Shown piece by piece: positions 1,100 through 62,241 of a DNA stretch of 64,000 nt; the first letter of the stretch is position 1; the number at the start of each line of letters is the position of its first letter. A program made the translations under genes and the position numbers. Under the pieces are notes generated by a model, which saw nothing but the letters and a program-made list of their open reading frames with translations, was not told the origin of the DNA and made no database searches. Origin of the DNA: Tessaracoccus sp. MC1679 (lineage in GTDB: Bacteria; Actinomycetota; Actinomycetes; Propionibacteriales; Propionibacteriaceae); the NCBI RefSeq assembly GCF_014164775.1, contig NZ_JACJGB010000001.1, positions 496,001-560,000 on the forward strand, in the 5' to 3' direction.

Positions 1100-1807
1100 G
1101 TGAGGGTGGCGCTGAGCCCCGCGCAGCGGCGCGGGCTGTCGGTGGGCGTCGCGACGGGGCTCTACGGGATCTCGTTCGGGGCACTGGCCGTGGCTGCCGG
1201 CCTGACGGTGGGGCAGGCATGCGTGCTCAGCCTGCTGATGTTCACCGGCGGCTCGCAGTTCGCGTTCGTCGGCGTCGTCGGCGGAGGTGGGGCGCTGGCG
1301 TCGGCGACCGCAGCCGCCTCGCTGCTGGGGGTCCGCAACGCGATCTACGGGGTCACCGCCAACGCCATGCTCCGCCCGCGCGGCTGGCGACGTTTCGTGG
1401 CCGCGCACCTGACCATCGACGAGTCCATCGCCACCGCGTCGGCCGCGGAGGACCCCGTCGAGGAGCGGCGGGGGTTCTGGGCTGGAGGTGTCGCGGTGTT
1501 CGTCCTGTGGAACCTGTTCACACTGTTGGGGGCCCTCCTCGGCGACGCCCTGGGCGACCCGAAGGCCTGGGGGCTCGACGGCGCGGCTGTCGCGGCGTTC
1601 CTGGGTTTGCTGTGGCCGCGGCTACGGAGCCGCGACCCGATCGCGATCGCGGTGATGGCCGCCGTGGTGACGGTGGCGGTGGCACCGTTCGTACCGCCGG
1701 GGATTCCGATCATCGTGGCGGCAGGTGTCGCGGTGGCGATGACTCTGGCCCAGCATCGCCGCGACTCGACGGTCGCGCCGGACGTCGATCGGAGTGTCCC
1801 ACGATGA
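1100..1807 (+). CDS. azlC: AzlC family branched-chain amino acid exporter, large subunit
   Basis: The protein (235 aa) is a hydrophobic permease of the AzlC/YgaZ family, which exports branched-chain amino acids or related compounds together with a small AzlD subunit. Several transmembrane segments are visible, and the family motif FTGGSQFA lies at residues 48-55, followed by a Gly/Ala-rich helix and the R-N-A-I-Y-G segment. The GTG start at 1100 follows the kinase stop by 10 bp. The stop codon overlaps the start of the next gene (ATGA), so the two are translationally coupled, as is usual for azlCD. The substrate cannot be fixed from sequence. Confidence 0.9.
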   Translation: MRVALSPAQRRGLSVGVATGLYGISFGALAVAAGLTVGQACVLSLLMFTGGSQFAFVGVVGGGGALASATAAASLLGVRNAIYGVTANAMLRPRGWRRFVAAHLTIDESIATASAAEDPVEERRGFWAGGVAVFVLWNLFTLLGALLGDALGDPKAWGLDGAAVAAFLGLLWPRLRSRDPIAIAVMAAVVTVAVAPFVPPGIPIIVAAGVAVAMTLAQHRRDSTVAPDVDRSVPR

Positions 1808-2115
1808 CGATGTGGCTCTGGATCATGGCCGCCTGCGCGATCGCGTACGTCACCAAGCTGGTCGGCTACCTGCTTCCCGAGCGATGGCTCGAGAATCCGT
1901 GGGTCGTGAAGCTCTCGCACGGGGTCACGGTCGGGCTGCTCGCCTCGCTCGTGGCCACCAACGCGTTCGTATCTGGCACTGCGGTGGCGCTCGACGCGCG
2001 CGCCGCGGCCCTGCTTGTGGCCGCCGTGGCCCTGGTGCTGCGCGCGCCATTCCTGCTCGTGGTGATTGCCGGGGCTGCCGCCGCCGCGTTGGCTCGCCTG
2101 GGTGGCCTCGCGTGA
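1804..2115 (+). CDS. azlD: AzlD family exporter, small subunit
   Basis: This is a small membrane protein (103 aa) with three to four predicted transmembrane helices and the usual length for AzlD/YgaH. It forms the exporter with AzlC. The ATG at 1804 overlaps the azlC stop by 4 bp, which decides the start. A much longer open frame begins upstream inside azlC but has no support. The gene stops 5 bp before a DnaA-box-containing palindromic element, so the element marks the end of this operon. Confidence 0.88.
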   Translation: MTMWLWIMAACAIAYVTKLVGYLLPERWLENPWVVKLSHGVTVGLLASLVATNAFVSGTAVALDARAAALLVAAVALVLRAPFLLVVIAGAAAAALARLGGLA

Positions 2116-2120
2116 TCTCT

Positions 2121-2166
2121 CCACAGCCTTATCCACAGCTGTGCACAGATTACGTCGGTGTAATTT
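2121..2166 (+). repeat. DnaA-box/palindrome element, copy A
   Basis: A CCACAGC half-site is followed by TTATCCACA (2129-2137, a perfect DnaA-box consensus) and then by the palindrome ATTAC-N6-GTAAT (2149-2164). The same order of motifs occurs at 48646-48690, with about 75 percent identity by eye. The element lies directly after azlD and before a toxin-antitoxin pair. Its function is unknown; it could be an element end, a DnaA-titrating site or an operator. Confidence 0.6.
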
Positions 2167-2340
2167 CGGCTCCTCGGGCCTGCGGCGAGGCGCCCCAGTC
2201 CGCCACCTCCGGAACCTGTGAACGTCCGAGCGGTCCGCGGCATGACCGGACGTTGCGCAGCTCTCGTTCAAGGGCCCTCTTGGGCCAGACCTCTAGTCGC
2301 AGGATCGATAGCTTCTCACCGGGGAGGTACGCGCACGCTC

Positions 2341-2368
2341 TTGCAATCTGCACAGATTCCTATACAGT
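2341..2368 (+). promoter_or_regulatory. Candidate promoter of the toxin-antitoxin operon
   Basis: A TTGCAA hexamer at 2341-2346 and TACAGT at 2363-2368 are 16 bp apart, and the antitoxin ATG follows 7 bp after the -10 box. A leaderless or very short-leader transcript would result. The CTGCACA and CTATACA half-sites around it could serve autorepression. Confidence 0.45.
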
Positions 2369-2375
2369 TCTTGTC

Positions 2376-2711
2376 ATGACCATCTTCGCTGACCTGCACC
2401 GCGAGCGGACTCTGTCCGTTACCGCAGCCTCCAGCCGCGGTGTCGCGGGCTTGGTCAAGGATGCGGAGCGTGGTGAGGACATCATCGTCGAGCGCCACGG
2501 GCGCGCGGTCGCTGCCGTTATCTCCGTTGAACAGTTCGACGAGCTTCACCGTGTTCGGGCTGACCTGATCGCCGCTTCCCTCGTCTTGTCGCGCGAGCTC
2601 TCTGACACTGGCAGCCGCACCGATCTGGACGACGCCATCGCGGCGTTCGGGTTCGACCGGGTGGAACTCGAGGCCGAGCTCGACGCTGACCTAGCCACCG
2701 GCCGCGAGTGA
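2376..2711 (+). CDS. Type II antitoxin, Phd/YefM-like
   Basis: The 111-aa protein resembles Phd/YefM antitoxins. An N-terminal DNA-binding half contains the typical ASSRGVAGLVKDAERGE-like stretch, followed by IIVERHGRAVAAVIS. An acidic C-terminal tail probably wraps the toxin. The ATG at 2376 is chosen because the preceding in-frame sequence has no family similarity and a promoter sits just upstream. The toxin gene follows after 39 bp. The protein is expected to neutralise that toxin and repress the operon. Confidence 0.8.
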   Translation: MTIFADLHRERTLSVTAASSRGVAGLVKDAERGEDIIVERHGRAVAAVISVEQFDELHRVRADLIAASLVLSRELSDTGSRTDLDDAIAAFGFDRVELEAELDADLATGRE

Positions 2712-2750
2712 CAACGCAACTCCGGTCCGGCCCCGGGCCAGCGGTTACGC

Positions 2751-3329
2751 ATGGTTGAAAAGAAGCACCCGGAAGTACCCGGGTGTCTAGTGCGCCTGAC
2801 CGGGGATGCGGTCGAGGACCTGGAGACCCTGTTCAAGGCCGACCCGCAGATCGTGCGCTGGGCCTTGAAAAAGATGATCCAGATCGAGCGCGACCCCAAC
2901 GCAGGCGCCCCCTTGCTGGGCGGTCTCATCGGCTACCGCAAGATCGCCGTCGGCGATCGTGACTGGCGCGTCGTATGGCGAGTCGTGCAGGACGACGCAG
3001 GAGACTTCCGAGTGGAGGTCGCGGAGGTCTGGGCAGTTGGGTACCGCAAGGACAACGAGGTCTACGAAGAGATCAGGCAACGCGTCGCTAACGCTGGCTC
3101 CTCACCGAAGACCAAGGCGCTCACGGAGGTTCTGGAGCTCTTCGCCAAGCAGGCAAGCGACCTGACCGCGACCCCGGAACCGGAGAAGCCTGAGCCAGTC
3201 CCGAGATGGTTGACCGACGCACTGCTCTACGTGGTGCACCTCCCGGCCTCCCAGGTCCAAGAGATGACACTCGAAGAAGCCGAGAGGGCTTGGACGGACC
3301 ATATTTCCGGTGCGGGTTCGGGAACGTAG
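2751..3329 (+). CDS. RelE/ParE-type toxin with long C-terminal extension
   Basis: Residues 1-107 look like a RelE/ParE-fold toxin. They contain AVEDLETLFKADP, a WALKKM helix, the LIGYRKIAVGDRDWRVVWRV strand pair and EVWAVGYRKDNEVYEE near the end of the fold. Family members usually have 85-110 residues; this one has 192. The extra 85 residues are Pro/Glu-rich at first and then form a helix-rich tail with PRWLTDALLYV and EEAERAWTDHI. The product probably acts on translation or on gyrase and is controlled by the antitoxin upstream. The target cannot be read from sequence. The gene ends 43 bp before the hairpin repeat. Confidence 0.75.
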   Translation: MVEKKHPEVPGCLVRLTGDAVEDLETLFKADPQIVRWALKKMIQIERDPNAGAPLLGGLIGYRKIAVGDRDWRVVWRVVQDDAGDFRVEVAEVWAVGYRKDNEVYEEIRQRVANAGSSPKTKALTEVLELFAKQASDLTATPEPEKPEPVPRWLTDALLYVVHLPASQVQEMTLEEAERAWTDHISGAGSGT

Positions 3330-3372
3330 CTGGGCCTCTGCTGAGGCTGCCCTCCCTGCCGGCTGCGCTCAT

Positions 3373-3580
3373 CGCGGCAGATCCGGTAGTTGTTCATCGC
3401 GTGCGGGCCGGAGTGGTATCCCGGCCGAACCCGCCCTCATGCGAGGAAAGACGGTCCCCCTGGTTTGTGTTTGTCTGCAACTTGCTACCCATAGAGCGGC
3501 ATCTGCGCATATATGCAGAAGCCGCCCTCTGGGTAGCAAGTTGCAGACCCCTCGTCGTCAACGACACCATTCCGGCGGCA
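3373..3580 (+). repeat. Dispersed repeat R1, copy 1
   Basis: About 205 bp are shared with 50846-51058 in the same orientation. The shared block starts at CGCGGCAGATCCGG, continues through TTCATCGCGTGCGGGCCGGAG and GCGAGGAAAG, and ends after CGACACCATTCCGGC. The last third is a large hairpin listed separately. No open frame is conserved between the two copies, so this is a noncoding element. The gap 3330-3808 holds nothing else recognisable; 3581-3808 is unassigned. Confidence 0.85.
3473..3548. other. 76-bp near-perfect hairpin in R1 copy 1
   Basis: The arms begin GTCTGCAACTTGCTACCC and end with its exact complement. Inside them are a GCGGC/GCCGC stem, TCTGC/GCAGA, and a GCATATAT core. Pairing is interrupted only by a few mismatches. 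The other copy (50949-51024) has different arm mismatches, and its inner stem pairs perfectly where this one does not. There is no trailing T-run, so a simple terminator is not the obvious reading. Confidence 0.85.
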
Positions 3581-3808
3581 TCAGCACCTCGGCAGGAGCG
3601 TGAAGCGCACAGTCCGGGGCTTCGACGGCGCTGGGCGCCACCTGAGCCACCGGGATGGCGTGTGTGGCTGAGCCCCACAGCGAACGCTCAGCTGTCTGAC
3701 GACAACCTAAGACCCCGACCCTTTGGGCCGGGACATCCACAAGACGCGCGTGGTCTTGGCGTTGCGGAGTTCCCGCCCATTGTCCGAGTGCGCTGCCATG
3801 ATGGCGCC

Positions 3809-38936: not shown

Positions 38937-39143
38937 CGAACGCGAGCTGACAAGGTCACGTTCTATAGGCTTCGAGGCCGCTTCGCGGCACCTCAGCCAG
39001 CGGGATCAGCGCGAGCCCTCACCGCTGGCTGAGGCGCGAGGAGCGCAGCGACGAGCCTCGAAGCCTACGAAACGCAAGCTGACAAGGTCACGTTCTATAG
39101 GCTTCGAGGCCGCTCCGCGGCACCTCAGCCGGCGGGATCAGCG
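38937..39143. repeat. REP/BIME-like repeat cluster R4 (direct-inverted-direct)
   Basis: A 75-bp unit (containing CTGACAAGGTCACGTTCTA and GGCCGC-TTCGCGGC) is at 38937-39011 and is repeated at 39068-39143. Between them, 39012-39067 carries an inverted version (GCTGGCTGAGGC ... GCCTCGAAGCC). The cluster lies between the convergent kinase and DUF2202 genes, where REP-type elements commonly sit and may act as a two-way terminator. A shorter relative ends at 18554 beside the FadD-like gene. Confidence 0.75.
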
Positions 39144-48252: not shown

Positions 48253-48618
48253 TCAGCGATCCCGTAGCCGGTCAAGGTCGCGGCGCTCCCGCTTGGTGGG
48301 TCTGCCCGCGCCGCGATCGCGGACCGCCACCCGGCCCACCATCTCCGGGATCGGCGGCGGCTTCTCGGGTGTCCGGTCGAGGTAGGCGGCCTGGGCGATC
48401 GGCGCACCGACCCGCTTCTCCAGGTTCGGGTCCACCACCTGGATCAGCTTCTCCTCCTGCTCGCGACGCACCCTGATCACCTGCCCGGGCATGACGTGCT
48501 GCGACGGCTTGGCGAGCTTGTCGTCGACCCGGACGTGCCCGCCGCGCACCGCGGCCGTGGCGGACGAGCGCGTCTTGTACATCCGCACCGCCCACAGCCA
48601 GGAGTCGAGTCGAGCCAT
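48253..48618 (-). CDS. S4-domain RNA-binding protein (Hsp15-like)
   Basis: The 121-aa protein starts with an S4 domain (ARLDSWLWAVRMYKTRSSATAAVRGGHVRVDDKLAKPS) and ends in a basic tail (RDRGAGRPTKRERRDLDRLR). It resembles Hsp15/YrfH-type proteins that bind ribosomal RNA or stalled 50S subunits. The length is slightly below that of E. coli Hsp15. It reads toward the hydrolase gene. Confidence 0.9.
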   Translation of the reverse strand: MARLDSWLWAVRMYKTRSSATAAVRGGHVRVDDKLAKPSQHVMPGQVIRVRREQEEKLIQVVDPNLEKRVGAPIAQAAYLDRTPEKPPPIPEMVGRVAVRDRGAGRPTKRERRDLDRLRDR

Positions 48619-48645: not shown

Positions 48646-48690
48646 CCACAGCGTTATCCACAGCTGGGGAAAACTACGCGCGTGTAATTC
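48646..48690 (+). repeat. DnaA-box/palindrome element, copy B
   Basis: CCACAGC is followed by TTATCCACA (48654-48662) and the palindrome AACTAC-N6-GTAATT (48672-48689). Order, spacing and orientation match copy A at 2121-2166. It lies upstream of the S4 gene and marks the left side of a lower-GC islet. The rest of the gap 48619-48851 (48691-48851) shows nothing recognisable. Confidence 0.6.
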
Positions 48691-48851
48691 AAGTGAAGAA
48701 CGCGCGGTTGGTGGCAGGTGTCCGTTTACCACGAGCCGCAGCTACTTTTTATAAACGGGCCAGGGTCGGGAGCTTCTCGGCTCGTTAGCATTCTAGGGCC
48801 CCGTAACCGCACCCCGGCTGTGGCCTCCGAGGGGCCGCAGCAAGACCGCCA

Positions 48852-49133
48852 CTACCGCGCCTCGCCCTCGCGGGATTGAAGGTGGTGATGAACCGTCGCC
48901 TCTTCGAGCGTGAGTCCCTGGATCACCGACTCCATGAAGCCCCAGTCAAGCCCCAGGTCGTTGCCAATGCTCGGCGACATATCCTCACTTCGAGCTAGCT
49001 CCTGCAACTCCGCATAGGCCCCACCAGCAGCATCCAAGTGCTCGTTCAATCGGCGGGCCGCAGACTGCATGGCGAGCAGGGTCTCCGGAGACGGCGCGCG
49101 ATGCCTCCCAAAAGGGGGGAAGGGTTGCGTCAT
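48852..49133 (-). CDS. Orphan small protein, partner of secreted protein
   Basis: The 93-aa protein was not recognised. It is soluble, with helices around HLDAAGGAYAELQELARSEDM and LGLDWGFMESVIQG, and acidic. Its ATG overlaps the stop of the secreted-protein gene by one base (TGATG), so the two are translated together. Codon use and lower GC differ from the flanking genes. Confidence 0.55.
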   Translation of the reverse strand: MTQPFPPFGRHRAPSPETLLAMQSAARRLNEHLDAAGGAYAELQELARSEDMSPSIGNDLGLDWGFMESVIQGLTLEEATVHHHLQSREGEAR

Positions 49134-49777
49134 CAGCTCACCTTGAAGTTGCAGGCAAGCTTGACGTTGTCACTCTTGACCACGCCCATCTTTTTGCTCT
49201 TCAAGGTCACCTCTGCCTGGATCTGAAATTCCTTGGTGTAGGTGGTGTCACACTTCTTGACTCGATGCGCCGTCACAACCTTGCTCGAGACAGATTCCAA
49301 CGGGCTCATAGCGGTTTCCTGCTTGGTCTTCTGGAACGCAAACGCTCCCGTCTGCATCCAGAGTTGCGCCGAGATTGAACGCACATAGGTCGAGGCAGAG
49401 CCGTAGACATTGCAGTCATTCCATGCACCCCACTCGACATTGGAGTTCACCTTCTTGGGCAGGAAAAACCCCCCCTTGCAGATGCCTACACCAAATTCGA
49501 TATTCATCGGAGATGCGGCGCTGCCACTCCCGCTCTCTGTGATTGTCCAGTTCTGCCCATCGGAAACCAGTGTGTACTCGCCGAGGGGCTGGATATTGAC
49601 CTCCGCCCCCCGCACCCCGGCCCTCTCCAACAAACTCCGTTCGCTAGGCGGCAACTCCGACTGGAGGACCGTGGCCCCCTCGTCCTTGCCGTCCTCGTCG
49701 GCCATCACTGGCCCAGTAGACATCCCGACCAGGGATGCGGCCAGGACGGCCGCCATCAACATCTTCTGGGTGCGCAT
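49133..49777 (-). CDS. Orphan secreted protein with four cysteines
   Basis: The 214-aa protein has a signal peptide (about 1-29, cleavage after VMA) and a mature part of beta-rich character with four cysteines (GICKGG, NDCNVYG, KKCDTT, KLACNFK). No known family is recognised. It is followed by the small partner gene. The start at 49777 gives a normal signal peptide; the open frame upstream does not. Base composition is lower in GC than in neighbours, suggesting acquisition by transfer. Confidence 0.65.
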   Translation of the reverse strand: MRTQKMLMAAVLAASLVGMSTGPVMADEDGKDEGATVLQSELPPSERSLLERAGVRGAEVNIQPLGEYTLVSDGQNWTITESGSGSAASPMNIEFGVGICKGGFFLPKKVNSNVEWGAWNDCNVYGSASTYVRSISAQLWMQTGAFAFQKTKQETAMSPLESVSSKVVTAHRVKKCDTTYTKEFQIQAEVTLKSKKMGVVKSDNVKLACNFKVS

Positions 49778-49903
49778 CTCGACTCCTGTCGCTGTACCTG
49801 GCAATGACGCTAGCCACCGGATGCGGTGGCGGTACCCATCGGGCATCGAATCCCCGCCAAACGCTCATTCACCCTGAGTGGCGCAGTTCCCGCCCGGTCC
49901 ACA

Positions 49904-50130
49904 GTCACTCGCGACGGGGGCAGGACGAGACAGAGACTCAAGGCCAACGGATCGCGACGACGCTCCATCCGCGCGCGTACTCGCCGAGGAGACTCACTGC
50001 GCGATCTGTGGCCAGTGGATAGACAAGGGGCTCAAGACCCCCGATCCGATGAGCCCCGAGGTCGATGAAGACATCCCTCGAGCACGAGGCGGGATCTCAA
50101 TACGACCGGACTCGCCCGCCCTACATTGAA
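49904..50130 (+). pseudogene. Frameshifted HNH endonuclease remnant, phage type
   Basis: Three frames together spell a phage-type HNH protein: RTRQRLKANGSRRRSIRAR (to about 49975), then VLAEETHCAICGQWIDKGL and PDPMSPEVDEDIPRARGG (49977-50091), then SQYDRT in the third frame. Only the first zinc knuckle (CAIC) and the central EVDEDIP remain. At least two frameshifts are needed, so it is inactive. 50131-50470 is a further low-coding stretch without recognisable content. Confidence 0.55.
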
Positions 50131-50470
50131 CGAGTCGCCACCATCAACTCGTATTTTCAAACTAGAGACCGGGATCTCATTCAAACTAGAGCGCGTCTCG
50201 ACAGGTGTCGAGGGAGCCGCAACCTAGAGATGCCCCCAAGCCCCCCGATAGCCTGGGACATCAAGACCTCAATTCACAGTTGAGTCGTTCATCGAGGGTG
50301 TCTCTGTTCCCGCAGCGGCGCCCTCACTTCATGTCAGGACGCGCGCCTTCAACACCACAGCACCTTGGGGGCCACCCGCCACCGCCTCACAACCAAGCGG
50401 GCCCGGGAAGCGTCCGCGCGGTCCGCGGCAGTTCCGTGCGTTGAGTCTGCCTGGGACAACCTGCGCTAGC

Positions 50471-50845
50471 GTGCATCAAGCCCGCCGCCCAGGTTGGCAG
50501 GTGATCCTGGTGGCATTGGTCGGGCTGTGGGGGCTGTTGCTCATTGTTCTCACAGCGTTCCTCCTCGCGATGTCTACCGTCGGACAAGAGTTCAGCGTCA
50601 CAGCCCTCGGGACGGGGATCGCCGTGGGCATCGGCGCGATCATCACCCTGCTGCCCGTGCTCGCCTGGCTTCGCGATCACGGCGCCAAGCGACTGTGGCC
50701 CACGGTGGCCCCCGATCTGGTTTCGCGGCATGGATCCGCTCAGACGGGCGGGGTGTTTCCAGCCCAGCCGGCCCGACGTGTCAATGGGGGCCTGCAGCGT
50801 CTACACCTTCCGTCTACCCGAAGTCGGAGCAGGTTCTCGGTGCCA
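50471..50845 (+). pseudogene. Membrane ORF fragment running into repeat R1
   Basis: From a GTG at 50471 the frame encodes VHQARRPGWQVILVALVG and two hydrophobic helices (to about residue 70), then a hydrophilic stretch. The frame continues into R1 and only stops at 51085 inside the next gene, so the native C-terminus was probably lost. No ribosome site is seen. Confidence 0.35.
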
Positions 50846-51058
50846 CGCGGCAGATCCGGTAGTTGTTCATCGCGTGCGGGCCGGAGGGGGATCGATCCCA
50901 GTCGAACCCACCCCTCGTGCGAGGAAAGGACGGTCCCCCTGTTTGTGTGTCTGCAACTTGCTACCCATAGAGCGGCATCTGCGCATATATGCAGAAGCCG
51001 CTCTATGGATAGCAAGTTGCAGACCCCCTCGTCGACGACGACACCATTCCGGCAGGAT
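50846..51058 (+). repeat. Dispersed repeat R1, copy 2
   Basis: This is the second copy of the ~205-bp repeat described at 3373-3580, in the same orientation. The 5' block (CGCGGCAGATCCGG ... GCGGGCCGGAG) and the hairpin are the best conserved. The block around 50890-50915 differs most. It ends 8 bp before the Lon-N gene start, so it also occupies that gene's promoter region. Confidence 0.85.
50949..51024. other. 76-bp near-perfect hairpin in R1 copy 2
   Basis: The hairpin has the same length and outline as the one at 3473-3548. The inner ATAGAGCGGC stem pairs perfectly here; the outer arm has one mismatch (CCC against ATC). The loop is again GCATATAT-like. Confidence 0.85.
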
Positions 51059-51065
51059 CGCTGTC

Positions 51066-61588: not shown

Positions 61589-61592
61589 ATAC

Positions 61593-61735
61593 CGCTCCCT
61601 GAGGAGGGCCGCCCGCGGAGCGGCGTGGTACGTCCCATCGCTCCCTGAGGAGGACCGCCCGCGAAGCGGCGTGACCCGTCCCTTCGCTCCCTGAGGAGGG
61701 CCGCCCGCGAAGCGGCGTGGCCTGTCTCGAAGGGT
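61593..61735. repeat. Tandem 46-bp repeat array R3
   Basis: Three units start with CGCTCCCTGAGGAGG at 61593, 61639 and 61685 (period 46). Each contains GCCGC-CCGCGAA-GCGGC-type dyads. A fourth, solitary unit is at 62124-62170. The unit may be a REP-like element or terminator. The gap 61589-62241 contains only R3 and R2 copies and no credible gene. Confidence 0.75.
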
Positions 61736-61849
61736 CGTGACTACCACCTTCACGCGATTCTTCTGGTCGGGTGCGGTGAGCCGTAAGTCGATGCCCGGGC
61801 GGCCGTTGTCCTTGGTCTGAAGGTGGCTACCGGTGTGGTCGGTGGTCGG

Positions 61850-62036: not shown

Positions 62037-62241
62037 GTCAGCCGTGGTTCTCGACCCTTCGAGACTTCCCCGGTCGCTTCGCGACGCGGGACCCTCACCG
62101 ACCGAGCTTGGCCGCCCCTGTTTCGCTCCCTGAGGAGGGCCGCCCGCGGAGCGGCGGCGGCCGTCTCGAAGGGTTGTAACTCCAGCTGACAGGCAATCTC
62201 TGGATCGCTGGGGCCGCTCCCCCCTTGCATCCGCGGGCTGG

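Follow-up and report, generated by a model that had tools for sequence, protein, structure and literature searches.

The two accessory islets of the window (the whole 64,000-nucleotide stretch of DNA analysed, G000:C9:496001-560000) are very probably stray cassettes of an integron-like chromosomal cassette-shuffling system of Actinobacteria. Their true borders are copies of a 28-bp core site, in which the six bases (T/G)CGGCA lie between inverted arms and which is recognised at five places in the window (Table 1). The same CGCGGCA site begins both the repeat R1 and the unit at 50424, and it recurs in relatives in runs of one orientation. The preliminary description of this DNA had proposed a cassette-like unit with differing cargo and without a transposase of its own, and this was borne out: islet 1 holds a Phd-like/ParE-like pair, and islet 2 holds ORFs without a Pfam match.

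Table 1. Features of the two islets and of their flanks, in window positions
Feature	Positions	Strand	Remarks
Presumed azlD-like gene left of islet 1	1804..2115	+	reading frame; kept beside left element 1 in G022 and G019
Left element 1 (DnaA box and GTAAT motif), putative ancestral chromosomal element	2121..2165	+	kept beside azlD in relatives
3' tail of lost upstream cassette	2199..2235	+	copies in L119, L120 and L127; at sites in L141 and L144
Core site 1, overlap GCGGCA 2237-2242	2226..2253	+	27.5 bits, refined matrix
Toxin-antitoxin cassette, 1137 bp	2237..3373	+	copies in G019 and G007
Phd/YefM-like antitoxin	2376..2711	+	PF02604 at its cut-off, 29.8 bits
ParE-like toxin	2751..3329	+	PF05016, 24.5 bits (cut-off 23)
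Core site 2, overlap GCGGCA 3374-3379	3363..3390	+	25.8 bits; left flank matches L120/L121, right flank does not
R1, 215-bp cassette without recognised gene	3374..3588	+	begins at core site 2
76-bp imperfect palindrome inside R1, dispersed repeat	3473..3548	strandless	second window copy 50949-51024
Weak core site 3, overlap TCGGCA 3589-3594	3578..3605	+	13.8 bits
S4-domain gene flanking islet 2	48253..48618	-	PF01479; conserved in relatives
Left element 2, upstream element of S4 gene	48646..48690	+	S4-gene matches end at 48690 / 48689; partial alignment with L076 and L100
Transposon-like unit with passenger ORFs, without transposase	48723..50203	strandless	GGTGTC at 48717-48722 and 50204-50209
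Core site 4, overlap GCGGCA 50425-50430	50414..50441	+	26.3 bits
Decayed cassette	50425..50846	+	longer relatives in G000 C4/C6 and G019 C67
Core site 5, overlap GCGGCA 50847-50852, good right arm, poor left arm	50836..50863	+	12.4 bits refined matrix, 23.6 seed matrix
R1 copy 2	50847..51059	+	right end decayed, no site called there

Islet 1 appears to be a toxin-antitoxin cassette followed by R1. The cassette tail ahead of its first site also stands in front of an array site in G015, G019, G028 and G061, four further genomes. Contigs C27 and C10 of G019 contain copies of the toxin-antitoxin cassette at 99% identity, with neighbours that differ on both sides; there the identity starts and stops at CGCGGCA, and the sequence outside is unrelated. 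The copy in G007 is 96% identical over 1107 bp (window 2248-3354) and has lost the sites at its ends. A megablast search of plasmids returned no match to the cassette, and PADLOC gave no match for five proteins.

R1 had been described as the shared right end of the islets. The repeat itself is real (3373-3582 and 50846-51059; two plus-strand copies with 89% identity) but appears to be a small cassette, not a right end. In the copy at L004, the sequence is common up to TCGGCA and divergent beyond. Among the scored candidates (40 of 49), the R1 hairpin gave 37 match rows at no fewer than 19 distinct places in G000; only the two window copies are near full length, a larger part of R1 is also present at C9:137335, C10:366018 and C13:6440, and the other places share little beyond the palindrome. 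Windows of 141-146 nt around the palindrome fold 7.1 to 8.5 standard deviations below shuffled sequences. A comparison of 25 distinct copies finds Watson-Crick pairing in 725 of 850 arm pairs and at least two pair types in 17 of 34 columns; these compensatory changes indicate that the palindrome is maintained. The window gave no Rfam match at the gathering score, and R1 was rejected as an RNA family. The palindrome, which is REP- or terminator-like, is present in G019 too. Further short tandem or dispersed repeats in the window lie at 61591-61742, 62122-62181 and 38939-39143 (46-bp spacing, 73-bp units).

Islet 2 is ordered as the S4-domain gene with its upstream element, a transposon-like unit, a short stretch, a decayed cassette, R1 and a gene with a Lon domain. 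It reads as a decayed cassette plus R1, lying beside an unrelated transposon-like insert. This insert contains two reverse ORFs and a segment that we take to be an HNH-like fragment, and contig C58 of G015 presents a 99.7% identical copy with sharp edges and without the GGTGTC duplication. Right ends related to the same unit are also seen in G003 and G015. The short stretch ends in a tail, CGTCCGCGCGGTC, which is found ahead of array sites elsewhere as well. The weak points in the window are site 3, with its low score, site 5, with its poor left arm (the seed matrix ignores the left arm of the core site), and the second copy of R1, which has no right site.

The DnaA box and GTAAT motif, which the preliminary description placed at the start of each islet, are present there on the plus strand, but they look like a conserved element kept by descent beside the azlD-like and S4 genes and not like an end (the azlD family assignment is our assumption). 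The sequence TTATCCACA occurs three times in the window (2129 on the plus strand, 48654 on the plus strand and 26209 on the minus strand), against an expectation of 0.05, and both plus-strand copies are followed by the GTAAT motif. Throughout the genome there are 14 TTATCCACAG sites, and the motif follows only the two at the islets. The match covering azlD extends through the left element to window position 2173 in G022 and 2165 in G019, while the match covering the S4 gene reaches 48690 in G019 and 48689 in G022; parts of the left element also align in L046, L076 and L100. The combination of DnaA box and GTGTAATT adjoins different genes in Tessaracoccus (2121-2165 and 48646-48690 in the window; L046, L076 and L100), and the same query stretch has short matches in another family (G039 and G051).

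Two matrices were used to locate the core site, a seed matrix built from 23 seeds of this genus only, including the window's own strong sites, and a refined matrix of 31 positions. With the seed matrix only four places in the window reach 14 bits, all of them islet borders; because the strong sites of the window were among the seeds, the weight of this result is that nothing else scores. With the refined matrix, the best match outside the islets has 11.3 bits. A loose 18-base pattern gave 110 matches in 39 genomes of the genus against 210 for the pattern read backward, so it is uninformative by itself, and 17 of these genomes had no match or one; what stood out in this search was the clustering of sites on the same strand. 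In the phylum a strict pattern was found in 5 of 396 genomes, with five matches in the window's own genome and five in the other 395 together, compared with 15 for the backward control; these counts come from a pattern that is too strict and from a sample of mostly distant lineages, and they yield no prevalence figure.

When 222 distinct sites are pooled, a left arm, CGCnC(G/T)(C/G)A, emerges where the seed matrix had no positions. Its sequence reverse-complements that of the right arm, and the two are symmetric about the middle of GCGGCA, so that the core site is built like the double-stranded sites of tyrosine recombinases, with an overlap of 6 bp. Inverse matching between the arms amounts to 4.68 of 11 positions, compared with 3.04 for an upstream control. 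Left arms permuted among sites match equally well (4.64 +/- 0.08), which means that left and right arms do not co-vary and that the symmetry is only that of the consensus. In the 28 Tessaracoccus loci that were scanned, the arrays lie on one strand, apart from a single stray weak site in L147 and another in L149, whereas both orientations are found at a few loci (L224, L237, L238 and L254). Tandem runs of a 34-bp unit, each unit holding one core site without cargo, were observed at L252:14314-14897 (17.2 copies) and L258:12518-13152 (18.6 copies), about 4 kb and 2 kb from the recombinase, respectively. These runs could be docking arrays, and they could be mistaken for CRISPR.

Clustering of the open frames of the array loci retrieved a tyrosine recombinase. 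In G028 the gene is intact, whereas in the window's genome (G000) only fragments of it were found, next to arrays. An intact copy of Tessaracoccus oleiagri lies at L127:16957-17877. Of 8000 candidates that were scored, 7032 are homologs of the recombinase at an E value of 1e-20. It was matched at an E value of 1e-30 in 6 of 39 genomes of the genus and at 1e-70 in 13 of 394 genomes of the class, the window's own genome included; plasmids gave no match at 1e-40. The protein has 306 amino acids, matches PF00589 at 93.5 bits and has XerD as its closest solved structure, with which (1a0p) it aligns over residues 41-285. The R-K-HxxR-H-Y catalytic domain is present, and these residues presumably have their usual catalytic roles in the array recombinase.

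The sites are linked to this recombinase. A scan of genome contigs gave 192 relatives, from which 80 loci were kept, chosen by the protein alone; all are labelled Actinobacteria except one metagenome-assembled genome labelled Acidobacteria, and three are from Tessaracoccus, among them L172, from which the query and some seeds were taken. At 17 bits, over 1.27 Mb, the seed matrix found 148 sites on the strand opposite to the recombinase and 16 on the same strand, compared with a mean of 1.4 (maximum 5 in 30 shuffles) for column-shuffled matrices and 4 for the reversed matrix. Control loci contained one site in 204,772 bases, with eight loci that overlapped arrays or the window left out. The refined matrix, which was partly trained on these 80 loci, found 513 opposite and 61 same-strand sites (shuffled mean 10.65, largest of 20 shuffles 53); with it, opposite-strand sites are present at 79 of the 80 loci, with at least two at 75 and a median of 6. 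At 38 loci the recombinase match has a site no more than 150 bp before it, at 35 loci no more than 100 bp after it, and at 10 loci in both places. At 25 loci there is a site within 150 bp before and another within 1 kb after, and therefore the recombinase is bracketed like a cassette in at least a quarter of the loci.

This linkage is specific to one clade. Thirteen further loci at class level formed a held-out set, from which L254 was excluded because of an exact 200-base match to the training set. Among the remainder, all eight new loci (seven genomes) whose recombinase is 71-77% identical carry 2 to 32 opposite-strand sites, with two same-strand sites in all, whereas none of the four loci at 47-54% identity (61.6 kb) has any site. 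The contrast of 8/8 with 0/4 shows that the site goes with one recombinase clade.

The 23 Tessaracoccus array loci contain 78 cassettes, defined as stretches of 150-3000 bp bounded by sites scoring 15 bits or more, with a median length of 970 bp; 66 are unique. One best-scoring open frame was picked per cassette, and it is in sense orientation in 42 and antisense in 24. By inspection, we take the cargo to include Doc-, RelE/ParE-, VapC- and Phd-like, GNAT and metallo-beta-lactamase-fold proteins, along with many unknowns. Sixteen pairs of cassettes are full-length duplicates, 14 of them spanning different genomes. In five comparisons, two flanks that adjoin in one locus are separated in another by an insert of 676-3613 bp, as in L147 versus L148 (676 bp) and L202 versus L206 (694 bp). 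At L119 (2703-3167), a remnant gene, presumably of an IS110-like transposase, lies ahead of the first array site. The sequence next to it is also found in L120, L127, L141 and L144, and this recurrence of the same 3' context suggests an insertion sequence that targets cassette tails.

Cassette borders fall at the overlap. In 34 site pairs with only the right flank in common, the common stretch begins at or before overlap base 1, and in 33 pairs with only the left flank in common it ends at or after overlap base 6; both patterns would be expected if exchange occurs inside the overlap, with the qualification that the pairs are not independent and that an apparent break can spread outward because the arms are alike by consensus. 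Ordered pairs among 677 sites comprise 26 with both flanks in common, 324 with only the left and 1180 with only the right, the last number being inflated by families of related cassettes. The prediction that overlap base 1 matches between neighbouring sites failed: it is the same in 256 of 427 adjacent sites, compared with 263 +/- 7 in within-locus shuffles, and this lack of excess over chance counts against the model, since strict identity of the overlap would predict an excess.

In the proposed mechanism, a cassette would run from the right arm of one site to the left arm of the following one. The XerD-like tyrosine recombinase, mostly antisense to its arrays, would recombine two direct sites within the 6-bp (T/G)CGGCA, the excised cassette would form a circle carrying one complete site, and this circle would insert at another site by the reverse reaction. 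We infer by comparison of loci that the cassettes are mobile, and further that such circles form, that the reaction is reversible and that this recombinase is the enzyme. The window's genome presumably can no longer move its cassettes without help; because it holds only recombinase fragments, the islets of the window are probably fossils or need help in trans. A separate cassette system would help to explain the trade in toxin-antitoxin and many unknown genes, and the site signature lets further cassettes be sought. The system may also yield a compact tool for recombination, and one gene with two short sites would be enough to test it directly.

It is hardly credible that the islets are transposon-like units bounded by a DnaA box on the left and a hairpin on the right, even though both elements occur at both islets in the same order and orientation. 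The preliminary description had treated the left element and R1 as a pair and had named mostly unpaired copies as evidence to the contrary; within the window's own genome the elements are in fact mostly unpaired, the left element at 12 of 14 places and the R1 hairpin at 17 of 19 (a lower-bound set). Moreover, the left elements stay put in relatives, G019 and G022 retaining them without R1 (no R1 match was found in G022), and where the cassette occurs elsewhere, its ends are at CGCGGCA and not at this element. The unpaired copies and the conservation in place rule out the left element as a cassette end. The suggested analogies to IS91/Helitron and IS200 units are not supported either, as the enzyme linked to the sites is a tyrosine recombinase and other cassette copies end at CGCGGCA. 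No clean empty site was found for the two islets of the window, their flanking genes matching separate contigs where both were matched (G019 for islet 1, G022 for islet 2). A reading of the GCGGCA sites as a shared regulatory or terminator motif, with the shuffling due to homologous recombination between repeats, is highly improbable. The sites are short repeats and some have longer common flanks, as this reading has it, but the breakpoints bracket the 6-bp overlap and the sequence beyond it is unrelated, the arms have inverted symmetry, and the sites are linked to a recombinase.

The cassette-shuffling system works like an integron yet fails two defining integron features. The likeness comprises arrays of direct repeats, small cassettes, toxin-antitoxin cargo and a recombinase that is mostly antisense with a site near its start; a direct-repeat cassette array with an antisense integrase, as in integrons, is thus found, with both orientations at few loci. 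Moreover, IntI-like genes above the model cut-off are present in 3 of 39 genomes of the genus (G003:C1:3176653, G018:C103:52529 and G001:C1:1387066). Nonetheless, it is decidedly unlikely that the arrays are ordinary or degenerate integrons with an IntI and drifted attC boxes. The array recombinase scores 50 bits against TIGR02249, whose cut-off is 265, and is therefore not an IntI; in its alignment to XerD no insertion separates the catalytic lysine from HxxR, and integron integrases carry an insertion in the catalytic domain (excerpt of PMC8138268). Its sites are double-stranded with inverted arms, whereas integron sites are folded attC. Folding of the attC kind, assessed at 110 of the 222 sites with single-base shuffles, gave a mean z of -0.41, compared with -0.22 for an interior control of shorter length, and the integron boxes GTTRRRY and upstream RYYYAAC occur at 5 and 7 of 222 sites (17 when shuffled for the latter); this lack of excess folding and of boxes rules out folded attC. 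Four fetched IntI-like loci (3.6-3.8 kb; three over the cut-off) contain no site of 12 bits or more. Integrons have a dedicated attI distinct from the cassette sites; the site near the recombinase start, present at the 38 of 80 loci mentioned above, is of the same type as the other array sites. The array recombinase can have sites on both sides, unlike the integron layout. IntegronFinder 2.0, as excerpted, reports no complete integron in Actinobacteria.

The resemblance to dif/pdif modules lies in the 28-bp site with its 6-bp centre, the small accessory modules and the toxin-antitoxin cargo. Action of the host XerC/XerD on the sites, as in the dif modules of Acinetobacter, would suit the inverted arms and the XerD-like character of the array recombinase, and the geometry of the sites fits the XerC/XerD plan, their arm sequences being unlike the pdif sites given in the excerpt of PMC13141974. 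This too is very unlikely. In the same excerpted text, dif modules use the host XerCD, have varied spacers, alternate in site orientation and move in pairs, whereas the array sites have one near-constant overlap, are nearly all direct repeats and track one recombinase clade (8/8 versus 0/4); the Tessaracoccus arrays do not alternate. Such modules come mainly from Acinetobacter plasmids, chromosomal ones being reported as well (excerpt of PMC12907356).

Phage records matching the recombinase number 108 (59 from Gordonia and 47 from Arthrobacter), one of them in the 60-80% identity band, and among the matches listed, 15 in number, the identity is 45-46%. The arm-less integrases of actinobacteriophages (Brujita type) are likewise tyrosine integrases of about 300 amino acids; they are simple and move one prophage, and we know of no cassette arrays for them. 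Recombinase-in-trio elements are similar in having tyrosine recombinases without a DDE transposase, but they carry three different recombinases per element, whereas here one seems to serve many cassettes. In the manner of such an element, three tyrosine recombinase genes overlap one another in L144 (101-2956 of the reverse complement), on the same stretch as cassette sites. A literature search, with preprints and most subscription journals outside its reach, returned no description of a system like the one proposed here. We consider it probable that the cassette-shuffling system is a platform of the Actinobacteria's own, independent of integrons, in which a XerD-like recombinase itself travels as a cassette, a near-constant 6-bp overlap would make cassettes exchangeable in principle across the phylum, and empty 34-bp runs of 17-19 sites may serve as docking stations.
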